Shown: positions 4,844 through 15,269 of the stretch, one piece after another
Layout: each line of letters begins with the position of its first letter
Position numbering within the stretch: position 1 is the first letter of the stretch
DNA from: a virus
Strand: one strand, 5' to 3'
Virus record (IMG/VR): IMGVR_UViG_3300017674_000012
Location: 1 to 37,920 of that record
DNA length: 37,920 bases
Translations under genes and position numbers: made by a program
The notes under the pieces: model-generated
The model's database searches: none
Told to the model about the DNA's origin: nothing
What the model saw: only the letters and a program-made list of their open reading frames with translations

Positions 4844-6010
4844 TTAGAATTCGATCCATTCAATTGATACATTTATAACACCACCAGTTATGGTGGCGCC
4901 GTTCAAGTTCAAGCAAAGCCCTTGAGCTGTGCCTGACAAAATTATCGGTTTGCCATTCTCTCCAAACTCTAAAGTGTACTCAGAAAATTCGGGTGTAGCC
5001 GATGCTGAAATCGCCTGATACCACCGTCTAATATTTCCTAGAGATGTGCCAGGCGTTGGGTTTGCTGTGTACGCAATAGGTGTTGAGCTATTAGCGGCAT
5101 CCGTTGTTTCGTGCTGGGCTAATGAAAAGTTAGATGATGTGCCTCCGCTATTGGCGGTTGATCTTCTAACCAAAATAAAATCAACCATTCCGGTAGTGGT
5201 CTGTATTCCCGTAATTCTAATTTTGGTTATCTGCACAGTGGTTGTTGCATTTCCAAAGAATGCGACAATATCCGTAGCTGCGGCGGCAACCGTTATGTTG
5301 GCGCTAGCTGAATAAGTTCTTGCACTCGTACGGAATCCAGCGACATATTTCGCACCAAATCTATTGACTGTCACTTCGCTATAATCCCCTGCTGCGCTTG
5401 CTGAGGTTGTTAAAGCGTCCCTTCTTACACCAAGGATTGGAACTCCTGTATCACCAGATGAGGCTACAGCATCTTCTGCCTTACCTAATGACGTAGCGGA
5501 AGTTCCTCCTGTTCCTAAGTTGAAAGTTCCAATAGTGTTAGCGCCTGCCGGAAGTGGTGCAAATAGAGTATAGTAAAAATTATTGGTTATCGCTTTTATC
5601 CTAACATTTGCCGTTCCGGTTACTGCTGCCAAAGCAGAAACTCTTACAGTTTCCCATCCGGCTACGTTGACTGTGAATACGCCGACTGCTGCCGATGCTA
5701 TGGTCGCTGATTGCGCATTTGTTACTTGATTAGTCACCGCTAACGCATTTGTGACCGTCTGCCAAGTAGTTCCATTGTCCTGAGAAAGTTGAATAGAAAG
5801 CGCGCCGGTGTAAGTTCCGGCCACGTTTATACTCACCGTTGCCTGATTGTTTAAATCAAATCTGACAAATGATCCTGCTGTTGGAACACCTGTTAATGGG
5901 TTAAGGTTTTGCGTGGTGATTGAACCCGTTGCTATTCCTGTGCCGTTGCCAAATTGAATCTGAGCTAACGATGCAATTGGTAAGAGTAATAATAAAAATA
6001 TTTTCTTCAT
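4844..6010 (-). CDS. Exported beta-rich fibre-like protein
   Basis: This 388-residue protein has a Sec signal peptide (MKKIFLLLLLPIASLA, cut before Gln17, the usual Bacteroidota pattern). The mature protein is rich in Thr, Ala, Gly and Asn. It has beta-sandwich style segments, including TYTGALSIQLSQDNGTTWQ, a pattern common in phage-encoded structural and adhesin-like proteins. Its spacing of 14 and 12 bp from its neighbours indicates one operon with the other two exported proteins. It may be a fibre, a decoy or a surface protein; the sequence does not decide. Confidence 0.6.
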   Translation of the reverse strand: MKKIFLLLLLPIASLAQIQFGNGTGIATGSITTQNLNPLTGVPTAGSFVRFDLNNQATVSINVAGTYTGALSIQLSQDNGTTWQTVTNALAVTNQVTNAQSATIASAAVGVFTVNVAGWETVRVSALAAVTGTANVRIKAITNNFYYTLFAPLPAGANTIGTFNLGTGGTSATSLGKAEDAVASSGDTGVPILGVRRDALTTSASAAGDYSEVTVNRFGAKYVAGFRTSARTYSASANITVAAAATDIVAFFGNATTTVQITKIRITGIQTTTGMVDFILVRRSTANSGGTSSNFSLAQHETTDAANSSTPIAYTANPTPGTSLGNIRRWYQAISASATPEFSEYTLEFGENGKPIILSGTAQGLCLNLNGATITGGVINVSIEWIEF

Positions 6011-6022
6011 TGGTTTTTATAC

Positions 6023-7843
6023 TTAGTTAACAATTCTCCATTTTCCAGACACGCGCCGGATGATATAATTTGCGTTAGCAAGTAATTGAGTTACGACAGT
6101 TACATTGTCCGCTAGGAAGACAGGGGCGCCAGCCAACAGCCAAACAAAACCAGCTTCGTTGTTGTATATCTCAATGTAGTCACCATTGGTAGCTGTAGGA
6201 AACGTAATGGTTTTGTTTGTTGTAAGCGTAGCTGGCGGTAAGTATTTTACTGAATTTACTCCAATAGTAAAACTGGCATCGGTAGCATCTGCTGCAATGG
6301 TTAATCCAGAAGCGCTAACACTTGTCCAAGTTGCAGGTGCTCCAGCCCCTCCGCTCGTCAACACTTGTCCACTCGTCCCCTCACTTCCGCCTACCGATAA
6401 GCCGCCAGCATCTTTAAAGGCAAATCTTTCTGTGTTTGCGCTTGTAGCGAATCGGGCAATGTTTGTTCCTCCAGATAATCCCCGAACATCTAATCTAGTA
6501 CTTGCTGTTTGTGTATCAAGTGATGAGTTACAGATAAATACTGTTCCAATATTTGACCTAATAGCATTATGCGCCGCAGCTATTGATCCGGTTAAAGGAG
6601 GATCGTGGAGAAATCCTATATAGCTGTTAATTCCAGCGGCCGCAACCGGTGACCTTGAAAAAAATGCAACGTAATCAACGGTAGCGCCTCCAGAGGTAGT
6701 AAGAGTTTTATTGGTACTATAGTCAACAATAGTTCTGATACCTGCGCTTCCTGTAGATACTGTTCCTGTTGTCGTGTATCCAGTGTATGACCCAACAGTA
6801 GCGTAATTGGTCACTGAATTTGAAAAAGTCGTAGCGTTAACCGTTACGCCCCCAGCAATTAAACTAGATATACCTTGCAGTGTCCCATTATTTTGCAGGG
6901 TCATTGCATTAGTATAACCAGCGCCATTTACATTAAAAGCAAAAGAGAAAGTACCTATTGGATTCGATGTACCTGATGTCGGACTCATTAAAATTCTACC
7001 TTTCACGTTTTGAGATACAACTGGAGTTGTTGCCCACCCATTACCATCAAAAACTATTGATCCGGGATTTTGATTAAGTACAGCAGTTGCAGCATCAGAA
7101 TTTTGTAACCATAATCCTACACCATCTGTATTGGTTATCCCAATTCCATTGAAATTGAACCGTAGCGTATTGGTTGCTGAGCCTATAATGTTATTTGCAC
7201 CAGTTAACGTGCCACCAGAAGATAGTGACCATGCTCCAGCATTGGAGGCCGTTATGTCAGATAACAACGCAACTGTTCCACTAGCATTTGGTAGAGTATA
7301 ACTTCTATCTGCTGTATTTGACGTTCCATCAAAAGTTCTTACAAATCCATTTTGTCCTTTCCAGCTAAATCTATTTGATGCATCTGAATACAATCTAAAT
7401 CCACTACTTGGTGTAGCTGGAGTTGAGGACTGAACAATAAAACCATGATAGCCTGCACCCGCAGTTCCAGTAAGATCGCCACCAATTTTACTCAGAGCAT
7501 CGGTAATGCCATAACCACTGAGAGTAGTTGGCGTTCCTGTTATTTTACTCCATGCAAGTGAAGTAATCCAACTAGGATTAGAATAAGTACCTGAAGTCAA
7601 TACCACAGGATCAGTAATACCATAACCACTGAGCGTAGTTGGCTTTCCTGTTATGCTACTCCAGGAAATACTTGGCATTGAACTCCAAACTAAACTTAAC
7701 GAAGCTTTCTTAGTTGAACCTGACTGCACAACCGGAAAGACTTCCGTCCCGGACAGTGAGGAGGCCGCGGGAAGATCACTTACTTTCTGAGCTTTAGATA
7801 TCAGAAAGCCAAATACAAAGAATATAATTAGATAACCTCTCAT
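6023..7843 (-). CDS. Tail-fibre-like protein with signal peptide
   Basis: This 606-residue protein has a signal peptide (MRGYLIIFFVFGFLISKA, then Q). It continues into a fibre-type head region (VSDLPAASSLSGTEVFPVV) and two copies of the phage fibre repeat WS.ITG.PTTLSGYGITD (residues 61-78 and 98-115). The rest is low-complexity beta-helix style sequence, ending in a small C-terminal domain (about residues 510-606) with YIEIYNNEAGFVWL. This architecture is typical of tail fibres, apart from the signal peptide. The gene is in the late operon between a membrane protein gene and another exported protein gene. Confidence 0.7.
   Translation of the reverse strand: MRGYLIIFFVFGFLISKAQKVSDLPAASSLSGTEVFPVVQSGSTKKASLSLVWSSMPSISWSSITGKPTTLSGYGITDPVVLTSGTYSNPSWITSLAWSKITGTPTTLSGYGITDALSKIGGDLTGTAGAGYHGFIVQSSTPATPSSGFRLYSDASNRFSWKGQNGFVRTFDGTSNTADRSYTLPNASGTVALLSDITASNAGAWSLSSGGTLTGANNIIGSATNTLRFNFNGIGITNTDGVGLWLQNSDAATAVLNQNPGSIVFDGNGWATTPVVSQNVKGRILMSPTSGTSNPIGTFSFAFNVNGAGYTNAMTLQNNGTLQGISSLIAGGVTVNATTFSNSVTNYATVGSYTGYTTTGTVSTGSAGIRTIVDYSTNKTLTTSGGATVDYVAFFSRSPVAAAGINSYIGFLHDPPLTGSIAAAHNAIRSNIGTVFICNSSLDTQTASTRLDVRGLSGGTNIARFATSANTERFAFKDAGGLSVGGSEGTSGQVLTSGGAGAPATWTSVSASGLTIAADATDASFTIGVNSVKYLPPATLTTNKTITFPTATNGDYIEIYNNEAGFVWLLAGAPVFLADNVTVVTQLLANANYIIRRVSGKWRIVN
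7499..7663 (-). repeat. Direct repeat encoding tail-fibre GYGITD motif
   Basis: Two near-identical blocks of about 54 bp (7499-7552 and 7610-7663) encode the two WS.ITG.PTTLSGYGITD units of the fibre-like protein. The high DNA identity suggests a recent duplication, or recombination between fibre genes. Confidence 0.7.
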
Positions 7844-10616: not shown

Positions 10617-11233
10617 TGTACACTTTCACTACGTTCTACTAATTCTAAATCAACCAACTCATCGCTCGTGCCGATGATCTCATAAGGCTGCACAGCCATG
10701 CCCCGGCATTCAGGAAAATCAAAATCATAAATTGCAATCTGAGTTATACCCCACATAGTAAGTATCGCATTCTCTATTGCAACACTTCCTGATTGAGTAA
10801 CAACTTCACGCAAAGCCCTCAGCTGCTCTTCCGGATAATCGTCCGGGTCATTTTCATTGATCAGCAAACCACGAATTCGAATGTTGTAATTGTTGAGATT
10901 GATTTCCTCCAGCACATTTTGACGGTTCAAAAATCCGACCGGGTCCAACCTTGTAATTTTGGTTTCAATGATCTCTTTACCACCTCGTATTCGAATGGTT
11001 GGCTCATTGGGCAATTGATAGCCGGCAATCTTTGTAGGCATTGAAAATTCAGTGCCACTAATTCCACTTGAAAACTTGAAAGCACCACGCAGGGCCCTGG
11101 CAGTTCCAACTGGAGATAATTTGACCTGCTTACTATCCAATACAAGCGTAGGATAAGGTGGGCGCAGCGTACCAAAAAAGGTAGTGTACACCTGGCTTAG
11201 ATCATATTGTATACCTTGTTGTCCCGGTGTCAT
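10613..11233 (-). CDS. Tail/baseplate protein between tape measure and hub (DUF6046-like)
   Basis: This 206-residue protein occupies the place of Mu gpN, between tape measure and hub. It shows a beta-rich region with KIAGYQLPNEPTIRIRGGKEIIETKI and the helix-strand RQNVLEEINLNNYNIRIRGLLIN, which I associate with the DUF6046 family of Bacteroidota phages. It overlaps both neighbours by 4 bp (ATGA), so translation of the three genes is coupled. It probably links tube and hub; the assignment rests on position. Confidence 0.55.
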   Translation of the reverse strand: MTPGQQGIQYDLSQVYTTFFGTLRPPYPTLVLDSKQVKLSPVGTARALRGAFKFSSGISGTEFSMPTKIAGYQLPNEPTIRIRGGKEIIETKITRLDPVGFLNRQNVLEEINLNNYNIRIRGLLINENDPDDYPEEQLRALREVVTQSGSVAIENAILTMWGITQIAIYDFDFPECRGMAVQPYEIIGTSDELVDLELVERSESVQ

Positions 11234-12855
11234 TGTGCCTGTGCGTAGTTAGCTGAGTTCACCACTTCAATCATTTTTTCAACTGCCACCTTCTTCATCT
11301 TATCCATCAGGCCATTGATTTCCATCTCACCATTTACTTTCTCAATATTGCCAATGCCATTAAGCGTGGATATGTTAATCGTCACATTGATGGCCTGCTT
11401 GCCACCACCGGTGATCTTGTCGGTTCCGTCTTTTTCTTTTTTGGATTTACCCTTAGTAGGTTCAGTTAATTCACCAAAAGAGTTACCAACACCACCACGC
11501 ATAGCTAAAAGCAATTTTTTTGCTGCTTCGCTACGATTGTTACTACTATTAAATTTGGTATACGCTTCCGTAGTCTCCTTTATTTTCTTACCCAACTTAT
11601 CAATATCATCGATTCTATTTTTGATATCGTCTTCACTCAGTTTATCACTGCCAATAAGCCGATCAAATACGGACGATTGAGATATTTTACCTGTGTTGAT
11701 TTCGTCTTGTAGTTTGTCAATTTCTTTTCGCCATCCTCCTATCTGCTTAAAATCCTTTTCAATATTTCTTTCAGCTGCCATGGAAGCAAATTCCAAAGAA
11801 GACAACTTATCTTTCACTTTACTGTCACTTAGTTTAGCTGATTTACCTGAAGAAAAATCACTTCCTAATTCAGGAAATTGATCTAGTATTTTTTGTTCAA
11901 ACTCCTTTTCAAAAGGTGTTCCTTTATAACCTTGATAGCTTTCATAAAGAGCCGAAAGCTCTCCACGTGCGTTGGTTTGTTTTTTGAATCCGGATATCGA
12001 AGATTTGATATCGCCATGATCCAACACTTTTATAATTTTATCTAACAGAGGCGACCATAGCCGATTGATGTTTTCACCAACTTGTGTAAAGGCTATTTCC
12101 AGCTTATCGGCCACAGTACTCATCTTACCTTCCACCGTTTGGCTTTGCTTATCCATCATGCCAAAAAACCTTCCACCTTCGCTGGTCGCACTTATAAAAG
12201 CGGCTTCTACCATTTTGGCAGAGATAGCTCCTTCTTCCATTTTCTTTTTCAGCTCGCCAATACTGAGTCCCGTTTTCTCACTGATTACCTGTAGTGGATT
12301 AAACCCACTATTTACCATTTGGAGAAGATCTTGCCCCATCAGTCTTCCTGCAGCCTGGCTTTGTGCAAAAGCGAGGGATAGCAGGCGAAGGCGTTCTGAG
12401 TTACCACCGCTCACATCACCCAACATCCTTAGTGTAGGAATTATCTTTTTTGCCTCCACACCAAAGCCTAACAATGTCTTACCGCTCGCTTGCAAATCGC
12501 GCGAAGTAAAAGGTGTTACGTTGGCAAGAGCTATCGTGTCGTTCAGCATTTTATTTCCTGCCTCAGCTCCACCAAGCATTACCTCATAACTAATTCGTGT
12601 TTGTTCAAACTCACGCGCAAGCGCGCTGGCTTTTGTGATTCCCATAGAAAGGCCGGCAATTAGAGCCGCTGGTCCTAAATACCGAGTCACCCCACTCAGA
12701 GCCTCTGCAAAAAAGTTAGAGCTATTAGTCGCTTTGTTCATGCTTCCACTAAAGGCATCCACTTTACTCTTACCACTAGAAGCAGCATTAGCCAGCCGAC
12801 TAATTTTGTCGGTGGCCTGATCTTTTAAGCGTATGATGTATTCGTAGACTTTCAA
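11230..12855 (-). CDS. Tail tape measure protein
   Basis: The N-terminal half has the tape-measure domain: FEQTRISYEVMLGG, LANVTPFTSRDLQASGKTLLGFG, NSERLRLLSLAFAQSQAAGRLMGQDLLQM and NPLQVISEKTGLSIGELKKKM. A charged helical C-terminal half follows. I place the start at the TTG at 12855, because TTGA couples it to the stop of the frameshifted chaperone (12852-12854) and the coding then begins with LKVYEYIIRLKDQAT. An upstream ATG at 12933 would instead overlap the chaperone extension in another frame. At 541 residues the protein is short; if the usual relation holds, the tail is about 80 nm. Confidence 0.82.
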   Translation of the reverse strand: MKVYEYIIRLKDQATDKISRLANAASSGKSKVDAFSGSMNKATNSSNFFAEALSGVTRYLGPAALIAGLSMGITKASALAREFEQTRISYEVMLGGAEAGNKMLNDTIALANVTPFTSRDLQASGKTLLGFGVEAKKIIPTLRMLGDVSGGNSERLRLLSLAFAQSQAAGRLMGQDLLQMVNSGFNPLQVISEKTGLSIGELKKKMEEGAISAKMVEAAFISATSEGGRFFGMMDKQSQTVEGKMSTVADKLEIAFTQVGENINRLWSPLLDKIIKVLDHGDIKSSISGFKKQTNARGELSALYESYQGYKGTPFEKEFEQKILDQFPELGSDFSSGKSAKLSDSKVKDKLSSLEFASMAAERNIEKDFKQIGGWRKEIDKLQDEINTGKISQSSVFDRLIGSDKLSEDDIKNRIDDIDKLGKKIKETTEAYTKFNSSNNRSEAAKKLLLAMRGGVGNSFGELTEPTKGKSKKEKDGTDKITGGGKQAINVTINISTLNGIGNIEKVNGEMEINGLMDKMKKVAVEKMIEVVNSANYAQAQ

Positions 12856-13588
12856 AGCAATGGTCGATTTGTTAAACTCTGTTTCAACTCCTCTTGCCTT
12901 ACATACTCCAGCATCTTCACTGCCATGGCCCACTGCTCATCACTCATTGAGTCAGGGTCTTCGCGCAGATAGTATTTAATGCAAGCGTTTTTCTGAAGTA
13001 TCCAGGAGGCAGAGAGTATTTCTTCTGCCTCCTTTAAAACTTTTTTACCTCAACGTATTTTTTATTCTTAACCTCACGCACCTTCAGAAGAGCGGCCATG
13101 TATGCAGGAACATTTTTACGCAGTTCACTTAACTGATCCGCTTCTAAAGCGACACGCTCCAGCAAATAGATGTTGCTCAGCAGTGGTTTATCTTCCGCAT
13201 TGCGATCATCGGCATAAGCCAAGTCCATGCGGGTTGCCTTTCTTACCAGCAGTTTAAATCCATCAATAACAATTTCGCAATTGCCATTTTCAAGCTCTTC
13301 TACTATAGCTTCAGGAATGTCAATGAGATTATCAGTTTGTTGCTCAATGCCAACTTTAAAAGCATCATCTTTTTTCAAATCTTCATCGCCACCCAGCCAA
13401 CAGTTGGCTAGAAGGGAGTCAACCATTTGCCGCACGCCCTTTTGCCGGGCCGCGACTATAGCTTTCATTCTGTTAAAGTCTGTAGTGGGATCAAAAACGA
13501 AAACCGACTTACCATCGGCAATCAATTCGCGGCAGTTACCTTCTCCGTATTTGGCCTGCCATTCTTTTTTTTGCTCTTCTATATTCAT
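12852..13588 (-). CDS. Tail assembly chaperone, -1 frameshift product (long form)
   Basis: After Lys183 a -1 slip on the heptamer at 13040-13046 opens 62 further codons (13040 to 12855) ending at TGA 12852-12854, giving about 245 residues. The extension reads as protein: EAEEILSASWILQKNACIKY, then SDEQWAMAVKMLEYVRQEE, resembling the short helical GT-type domain that recruits the tail tube protein. The extension overlaps the tape measure start by one codon. No ATG with a reasonable leader begins this frame, which argues against an independent gene. Confidence 0.82.
13004..13046 (-). other. Programmed -1 ribosomal frameshift signal (slippery site plus hairpin)
   Basis: On the minus strand the zero-frame codons GTA AAA AAG contain the canonical heptamer A AAA AAG (13046 to 13040). 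Six nucleotides later comes a perfect 10-bp stem, AGGAGGCAGA (13033-13024) with TCTGCCTCCT (13013-13004), around a 10-nt loop. Heptamer, spacing and stem match the standard bacterial stimulatory layout. The stop codon of the short form lies between heptamer and stem. Confidence 0.88.
13034..13588 (-). CDS. Tail assembly chaperone, short form
   Basis: This 184-residue protein precedes the tape measure gene and follows the tube gene, the place of Mu gp41. It has acidic and helical segments with NGNCEIVIDGFKLLVRKATR in the middle. The zero-frame product ends VEVKKF, and the heptamer A AAA AAG overlaps its last codons. As in lambda G/GT and Mu gp41-gp42, this short form would coat the tape measure protein together with a longer frameshifted form. 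The leader shares a 17-bp sequence with the early gene at 34408. Confidence 0.75.
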   Translation of the reverse strand: MNIEEQKKEWQAKYGEGNCRELIADGKSVFVFDPTTDFNRMKAIVAARQKGVRQMVDSLLANCWLGGDEDLKKDDAFKVGIEQQTDNLIDIPEAIVEELENGNCEIVIDGFKLLVRKATRMDLAYADDRNAEDKPLLSNIYLLERVALEADQLSELRKNVPAYMAALLKVREVKNKKYVEVKKF

Positions 13589-13619: not shown

Positions 13620-14057
13620 TTACACATTCCACTGAATATCACCAATGATAACCGGTAGCGTAATCTCAATTTTCTGATCGCCCTGGTTGACTGGCACTTC
13701 ACACTCGGTAAACTCGACATACTTTAAAATATCGGTAGTTATCCCTATGCTGTCTTCAGGCGCATAGGCAGCAATAATATCAAATGGCTTGATTCGTATC
13801 ACACCTCCACCGTCAACTCCCTGGCTTTGCATGAGAGCTCTCAATTCGGAAAATAGAACCTTTACCTCTCCTTCATAATTGATATTCCCACGACTACGTG
13901 CGATCGGTTTTTTGCCTGCTCCATGCACGTTGCTTTTCTCTTGCATTTCTTTGTACTTCAACCCGAGCAAACCTATAACAGGGCGCCCGAGCATTACTAC
14001 CTGCAAGTCCTTATACCCATACTCTTCCGAGTTAAATGATCCTATCAAGTCTGCCAT
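13620..14057 (-). CDS. Tail tube protein (Mu gpM counterpart)
   Basis: This 145-residue protein lies directly downstream of the sheath gene and before the chaperone, the fixed order of contractile tails. It has a beta-rich sequence with YEGEVKVLFSELRALMQSQG and a C-terminal strand KIEITLPVIIGDIQ. Tube proteins form the inner tube through which DNA passes. Size and position agree; motif recognition is weak. Confidence 0.72.
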   Translation of the reverse strand: MADLIGSFNSEEYGYKDLQVVMLGRPVIGLLGLKYKEMQEKSNVHGAGKKPIARSRGNINYEGEVKVLFSELRALMQSQGVDGGGVIRIKPFDIIAAYAPEDSIGITTDILKYVEFTECEVPVNQGDQKIEITLPVIIGDIQWNV

Positions 14058-14069
14058 AACTTTGTTTTT

Positions 14070-15269
14070 TTAAAGCTCAAATCCGAGGTCAATTACCAAT
14101 TGCTTTCCGTATCCTTTTGGGGTCACTCTTACCTTGATGGGAATAATGCCGGTAACAACAATATTTACCTGGGCACTGATTTCACTACTCACGCTGCTTA
14201 CCTCTTTATCCTTTCCCGGTTGATTGAAAGCTGAAAGCAGGGCTTTGTCAATTTTAGCCTGATAACTTTTTGCAATGGCCGCGAGTAAGAAGCCATCTTC
14301 ACCAACTTCTAAATCATCAAGGATTTCATCCACGTAGGTCTTTTGAGTGACAATGATGGCTTTGTCGATCACACGGCCCAGTGCTATGGAATCGTAGTCA
14401 TCGGTGGCCGGAGCAGCTGTTGGGTCATCATTGAAATAGTATCCATTGCGGTTTGGATACTTGCGCATGAAGATGTAACCCTTGTTATGAATTTGGTCAA
14501 TCTGACCACCGCTAACAATAGTGAATGTTTTGGTGTCAGTGGATTGATTGGTTAAAAAAGCTGCCTGGATACCTAAGTCACCATCTTTCACGCGACCGAT
14601 ATTTCTTTGCACCGGGTTAGCTGCAAGGCGTCCTATGACTAATCCGATAGAAGCATTTTTGCTACCGGAAACATCAGTGCCAATGCAGACAGCTACTGAA
14701 TTGAAAGCGCTTGCTTTCAGGTCTGAAAGAGAGCCGATAGTACCTTGAAAATCGCGGCCATCTAACACCGTTCTAAACGGCTTAAACTCGGCTCTGAATT
14801 CATTATGAAGAGCATGGGCTTTTGCTGCAGCTGCTATCACATCAGCATCCAATTGACCTGTGTATGTTGCAACATAGGCTCCGTCCGGAACGCGAGTAAC
14901 ACCAACTATTCGGATTCTGCCATCTGCATCGTTGAGAAGCTTTTTCAAAATCGAGTTAGCCGTATCACAAATGGTAGACATTGTGCTGGTCTTAGCCACA
15001 ATCATAATCCAAAGCTCTTTTCCGCTGCCAGCCTCAGCATAGAAGTCCTTAATCGTTTTCCAAACATTGGTAGTGTTGGTAACGTCATAGGCACTGGTAA
15101 TGCCAATCGCTTCAGCTTCAGCCAACGTAAACAACTGCTTACTCACACCCAGTGCCAAACCGGTTGCAGCAACACCGGTCATTACAATGCCGGCAACACC
15201 ATCCTCTGTGGTGATCACCGCATCAAGAGCTCCATTCGCTAAGGTTATTGAAATACCAGGTGCAGCCAT
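14070..15269 (-). CDS. Tail sheath protein (DUF2586-like, Mu gpL counterpart)
   Basis: This 399-residue protein starts with PGISITLANGALDAVI, a pattern I associate with the DUF2586 sheath family of Bacteroidota phages. Long alternating domains follow, and the C-terminal strand KVRVTPKGYGKQLVIDLGFEL corresponds to the sheath's donor strand. Its presence shows the virion is myovirus-like. It is followed 12 bp later by the tube gene. Confidence 0.82.
   Translation of the reverse strand: MAAPGISITLANGALDAVITTEDGVAGIVMTGVAATGLALGVSKQLFTLAEAEAIGITSAYDVTNTTNVWKTIKDFYAEAGSGKELWIMIVAKTSTMSTICDTANSILKKLLNDADGRIRIVGVTRVPDGAYVATYTGQLDADVIAAAAKAHALHNEFRAEFKPFRTVLDGRDFQGTIGSLSDLKASAFNSVAVCIGTDVSGSKNASIGLVIGRLAANPVQRNIGRVKDGDLGIQAAFLTNQSTDTKTFTIVSGGQIDQIHNKGYIFMRKYPNRNGYYFNDDPTAAPATDDYDSIALGRVIDKAIIVTQKTYVDEILDDLEVGEDGFLLAAIAKSYQAKIDKALLSAFNQPGKDKEVSSVSSEISAQVNIVVTGIIPIKVRVTPKGYGKQLVIDLGFEL

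Follow-up and report, generated by a model that had tools for sequence, protein, structure and literature searches.

A predicted −1 ribosomal frameshift yielding two tail assembly chaperones in a transposable phage related to Winoviridae

The virus record IMGVR_UViG_3300017674_000012, whose 37,920 nucleotides constitute the window analysed here, carries on its minus strand a small gene, G, placed between the tail tube and tape measure genes as in the lambda G/GT class. Close to the stop codon of G, a second reading frame opens in the −1 register. Does this arrangement encode one tail assembly chaperone or two? In our view, a programmed −1 ribosomal frameshift is very probably at work here, and is predicted to give two chaperones from one gene.

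Anatomy of the element and its predicted products

The features of the locus, read from the sheath gene towards the tape measure, are the following.

14070–15269, minus strand: tail sheath, DUF2586 (Pfam DUF2586, E=6e-50; PHROG 907, E=1e-34)
13620–14057, minus strand: tail tube protein, upstream neighbour of G (PHROG 4579 tail protein, E=5e-18; also phrog_9206 'major head protein', E=6e-25), named tube from its position after the sheath gene
13034–13588, minus strand: gene G, predicted tail assembly chaperone of the 0 frame, 184 aa, C-terminus VKKF before the stop (ORF; PHROG 19076, E=5e-13; AlphaFold pLDDT 96)
13040–13046, minus strand: slippery heptamer A AAA AAG, in phase
13034–13036, minus strand: 0-frame stop TAA, one codon 3′ of the heptamer, a spacing shared by 76 of 91 relatives with a canonical heptamer
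13024–13033, minus strand: 5′ arm of the hairpin, AGGAGGCAGA, candidate stimulator (sequence and fold z-scores)
13004–13013, minus strand: 3′ arm of the hairpin, TCTGCCTCCT, candidate stimulator (sequence and fold z-scores)
12855–13040, minus strand: T extension in the −1 frame, 62 codons, predicted three-helix domain of a GT fusion (open frame; AlphaFold pLDDT 94)
12852–12854, minus strand: −1 frame stop TGA, overlapping the tape measure start (TTGA)
11230–12855, minus strand: tape measure protein, start TTG at 12855–12853 (PHROG 9959, E=1e-50; Pfam TMP_3, E=3e-22)

The reading phase at the slip site is GTA AAA AAG TTT TAA, that is X XXY YYZ in phase, and the heptamer lies exactly where the first-pass annotation had put it. 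A spacer of 6 nt, TTTTAA (13039–13034), leads to the stem, whose two arms are perfectly complementary over 10 bp around a loop of 10 nt; here too the coordinates proved right. The −1 frame has no stop codon between 13040 and 12855 and contains SDEQWAMAVKMLEYVRQEE. Added to the first 183 residues of G, its 62 codons would give a GT fusion of 245 aa, in agreement with the length first proposed, and the overlap between its stop and the tape measure TTG is likewise borne out.

The window also carries Mu-type transposase, DUF6046 and baseplate hub genes. At 559–1992, a host-type gene (hydrolase with M15 D-Ala-D-Ala dipeptidase) ends in mid-domain, at position 123 of 199 of the profile; the break is close to TGTATAATCGGCACTT, at about 1958, and it is probably here that the integrated transposable phage begins, its left end disrupting a host gene.

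In the mechanism that we propose, most ribosomes would stop at the TAA codon and release G. A minority would come to a pause at the hairpin while tRNA-Lys occupies A AAA AAG; both tRNAs could then re-pair one base back, on AAA AAA, and translation would continue in the −1 frame to produce GT, in which the three-helix T domain follows G. By analogy with lambda, G would bind the tape measure protein along its length, GT would recruit subunits of the tail tube through its T domain, and the G:GT ratio, which the slip determines, would matter to assembly. As ribosomes finishing the T frame would stop on the tape measure start, translation of the tape measure may be coupled to frameshifting, which the sequence makes plausible. 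Such an overlap is common in the family but not universal: among 126 related viral loci, described below, the extension stop and the tape measure start overlap as NTGA in 27 and adjoin as TAATG in 10, and in a further 43 a possible start falls between −20 and +12.

AlphaFold folds the extension of the window into three helices, the first of which begins at the slip site. The model of the T domain has no significant structural match in the PDB, and neither has the G model when searched with Foldseek alone. With VIA-align, the best 3 of 971 PDB chains for G are 3fgx on residues 6–98 (Z 6.9), YqbN (3klu) on residues 100–177 (Z 5.5) and the HK97 tail assembly chaperone (2ob9) on residues 100–179 (Z 4.1). 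The Z-scores, all below 8, are modest, and the sequence-profile matches of G to the PDB are marginal (3fgx, E=0.018), but the identity of the structural matches fits a tail chaperone. The two halves of the modelled protein resemble different solved small phage-type proteins, 3fgx for one, YqbN and the HK97 chaperone for the other. The G family comprises one-domain (about 100 aa) and two-domain (about 180–220 aa) forms, the short relatives corresponding to the first domain only.

Conservation of the frame and the slip site

A direct search with the G protein in viral and genome contigs gave no relatives, since G diverges fast; a sheath search with a single protein had no more success. Relatives were therefore collected through hub and sheath alignments, so that the slip site played no part in their selection. 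With iterated profiles, G and the extension were recovered together in 150 loci, or 126 once duplicates were removed, and the addition of genome contigs brought the number of distinct sites to 142. By hub protein, the closest named relatives are Winoviridae, with Flavobacterium and Winogradskyella as hosts. Where the host is named, the related proviruses of genome contigs come from Bacteroidota; the one exception, a Candidatus Kapaibacterium record, yielded neither G nor the extension.

The extension lies in the −1 frame in all 126 distinct viral loci. The +1 frame is closed around the slip site, and the arrangement is not that of a Mu-type −2 shift. The slip box A_AAA_AAN occurs in 89 of the 126 relatives; each of the remaining 37 has an in-phase Z_ZZN tetramer at the same spot or a few codons away at most; A_AAG predominates, for example in GAA_AAG, GTA_AAG and GCA_AAG. 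Across the 142 sites there are 106 heptamers and 36 tetramers, and none lacks both. Elsewhere in these G genes, an in-phase A_AAA_AAN is found at 0.18% of codons (28/15,815). The codon that supplies the first A is a valine, leucine or isoleucine codon ending in A in 79 of 89 cases (CTA 25, ATA 23, GTA 21, TTA 10), even though these genes use CTA and ATA sparingly, for 7% of leucine and 18% of isoleucine codons, respectively. On the sheath tree, heptamer and tetramer have replaced one another at least eight times.

Two loci, L124 and L137, read GAT TTT TAG near the G stop in place of the slip site, with a T_TTT tetramer directly before the stop. In another, L014 (4447–4499), the 0-frame stop comes 21 nt past the heptamer and not 6; as the distance from heptamer to hairpin is unchanged, it appears to be the hairpin spacing, not the stop, that is constrained in this locus.

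The −1 frame is under purifying selection. The median dN/dS of the extension is 0.08 over 111 pairs from 42 loci (the window itself is in none of them, its relatives being too distant), and differences at the three codon positions in the same pairs number 596, 248 and 1922. According to the first-pass annotation, the proposal would be refuted if conservation analysis showed the −1 frame or the stem to be free of purifying selection; the low dN/dS, together with the compensatory stem changes in one clade reported below, did not bear this out.

Three other readings of the locus have to be weighed. Were it a neutral coincidence, an overlapping ORF remnant would have met a chance run of A and a chance inverted repeat. 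The heptamer alone is compatible with this: AAAAAAG occurs 27 times in the whole window against 21.6 expected, with no significant enrichment, so that the case rests on phase, place and conservation. With 126 of 126 loci in frame, a dN/dS of 0.08, covariation in the stem and a synonymous-codon signal all contradicting it, we give this reading practically no weight.

Alternatively, the extension could be a small gene T of its own, with its own start and no fusion by frameshifting. It is annotated as a separate hypothetical of 42–47 aa in the Flavobacterium phages lotta8-1 (gp39) and fF4, and the window extension does have an internal ATG (MSDEQW...). Such starts are nevertheless rare in the family: any of ATG, GTG or TTG falls within the first 8 extension codons in only 11 of 126 loci, and ATG itself within the first 8 codons in 2 and within the first 20 in 28. 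A separate gene also fits poorly with a first helix that begins at the slip site and with the conservation of extension residues 1–2, mostly A-L, and would leave the conservation of the slip box without a reason. We therefore judge it very unlikely, and retain the fusion of G and T by a −1 shift.

Candidate stimulators: hairpin and Shine-Dalgarno-like sites

In the window, the local RNA fold has a z-score of −3.59 against shuffles and of −3.70 against synonymous-codon randomisation that preserves the −1 frame protein. Over the 126 loci the mean fold z is −1.17 at the site, compared with −0.003 to −0.28 at six control offsets, and 24% of loci fall below −2.5 at the site versus 0–6% at the offsets. 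The synonymous-codon z behaves in the same way, with a mean of −1.24 at the site against −0.35 further down. Strong stems mostly begin 4–8 nt past the slip box. In a Flavobacterium-type clade with a 14-bp helix, 84% of cells are paired, against 25–59% when slid, and 6 pairs have changed on both sides. The state of the hairpin has changed 17 times on the tree (z threshold −2). As about two thirds of the relatives are devoid of a strong local hairpin, the stem is not a universal requirement; judging from these sequence comparisons, it is a real but lineage-specific candidate stimulator.

Some relatives have an SD-like sequence upstream of the slip site. Of the 142 loci, 25 have a GGAGG, AGGAG or AAGGAG core there, nearly always 7–8 nt before the slip site, where phase-matched positions of the same genes would lead one to expect 2.6; 17 of the 25 are AAGGAGG exactly 7 nt from the heptamer position, as in L008, L144, L151, L152, L188, L189, L191, L199, L202 and others. 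The excess is due in part to the encoded K-E-A residues. Codon choice adds to it: K-E followed by a codon starting with G is written AAGGAGG in 17 of 28 cases here but in 36 of 154 at other places of these loci (Fisher p 1.5e-4, ignoring relatedness). On the tree, this element has changed state 11 times. Among its carriers are prophages of Bacteroides, where the site GAGATCAAGGAGGCTACCTTAAAAAAGCTATAA contains AAGGAGG, and of a Marinifilaceae bacterium. The window has no SD-like sequence at dnaX-type spacing, its upstream region reading AAAAAATACGTTGAGGT.

We also asked if SD-like site and hairpin exclude each other. The data do not support it (Mann-Whitney p=0.32; Fisher p=0.63; 11 independent pairs, uninformative), hence we do not claim that one replaces the other.

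Bacteroidia ribosomes are reported to hide their anti-SD and not to recognise SD sequences (PMC9976891, PMC8710568). At the ORF starts of the same loci we see little sign of SD use (27/193, against 20/193 in the control), which fits these reports. An SD-like prfB site is nonetheless retained by many Bacteroidia, although its efficiency in F. johnsoniae is low (PMC12421855). It is conceivable, though we hold it at slightly less than probable, that in part of the family, including the Bacteroides and Marinifilaceae prophages, an internal SD (AAGGAGG ending 7 nt before A AAA AAG) stimulates the −1 shift despite the reportedly hidden anti-SD, and that stimulators (hairpin or SD) and slip sites (heptamer or tetramer) are gained and lost in one orthologous gene whose shift persists throughout.

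The third alternative is that RNA polymerase, and not the ribosome, changes frame by slipping on the A run. Such a run is indeed present at the site and reaches 8–10 A in 13 of 126 relatives. That of the window has only 6, as have those of 65 of the 126, and 39 have 4 or fewer, which is short for transcriptional slippage; moreover, the A-poor tetramer sites retain the same frame change, and hairpin and SD-like elements point to the ribosome. Slippage by the polymerase is thus, if anything, a shade less likely than a separate T gene, and ribosomal frameshifting remains the preferred explanation.

The search of related phages for extension, heptamer and stem, suggested by the first-pass annotation, has a mixed outcome: the extension is found throughout, the heptamer in part, and a clear hairpin in only a quarter to a third of relatives. 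The element is not the uniform reference for its class that had been put forward: 37 of 126 members lack the heptamer, clear hairpins are in the minority, and some members have SD-like sequences upstream.

Known systems, annotation and significance

Lambda shifts at GGGAAAG. The present locus is unlike it in its slip site, A AAA AAG, in its contractile tail and in the single codon left before the stop in most relatives. It is like lambda in the −1 shift near the gene end, between tail tube and tape measure, and in the production of a short form and one with a C-terminal extension; the −1 frameshift of lambda G/GT and the corresponding assembly model are known (PMC5009743). Phage Mu, also transposable, with a contractile tail and a recoded chaperone gene, uses a −2 shift for tail assembly (PMC5009743), in contrast to the −1 found here in 126 of 126 loci. 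The mechanism had been described as known from lambda and Mu alike: the proper parallel is lambda, as Mu is a −2 case.

The same heptamer with a downstream hairpin is found in E. coli dnaX and in IS elements, where A_AAA_AAG and A_AAA_AAA make up 72% of frameshift heptamers (PMC4066793); gene and function are unrelated to ours. The upstream SD-like sequence of dnaX has a counterpart in part of the family only, and the window has the hairpin alone. Shifts on A_AAG tetramers are known from B. subtilis cdd (CGA AAG) and IS1222 (PMC5009743, PMC4066793). Many heptamer-less relatives likewise use GAA_AAG, GTA_AAG or GCA_AAG at the same position, with the difference that tetramers and heptamers here interchange within one orthologous gene.

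The Winoviridae phages Peternella_1, lotta8-1 and FPSV-S1 share the order of sheath, G, extension and tape measure with the window. Their slip sites are GTA AAA AAG, ATA AAA AAG and TTA AAA AAG, respectively, with possibly GGA AAG in Flavobacterium phage fF4. In the latter (5860–6975), the gene in the DUF6046 position comes directly after G and its extension, with no tape measure ORF between them. The frameshift is annotated in none of these four isolates, whose records either leave the extension unannotated or give it as a separate hypothetical.

The G family, PHROG 19076, is of unknown function there (52 of 54 members). Pfam has no family for G, the extension has neither a PHROG family nor a credible Pfam one, and neither G nor T matches a named chaperone family of either database. 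We found no record of the element in this phage family, although literature coverage is incomplete and an earlier notice elsewhere is possible. Tail chaperone frameshifting and both A AAA AAG and A_AAG sites are already known; the element of the window is in itself ordinary, and the family-wide pattern of stimulators is the interesting part.

Altogether, the finding suggests a function for PHROG 19076 and for a T domain that neither Pfam nor PHROGs contains; the examined Winoviridae isolates and Bacteroidota prophages would have their annotation corrected by it. The natural variants of heptamer and tetramer, hairpin and SD around one conserved recoding event constitute a test bed for −1 shift rates. 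Finally, the SD-like sites are relevant to a question raised by the prfB +1 site (PMC8710568, PMC12421855), namely whether the anti-SD of Bacteroidia ribosomes can become exposed during elongation.
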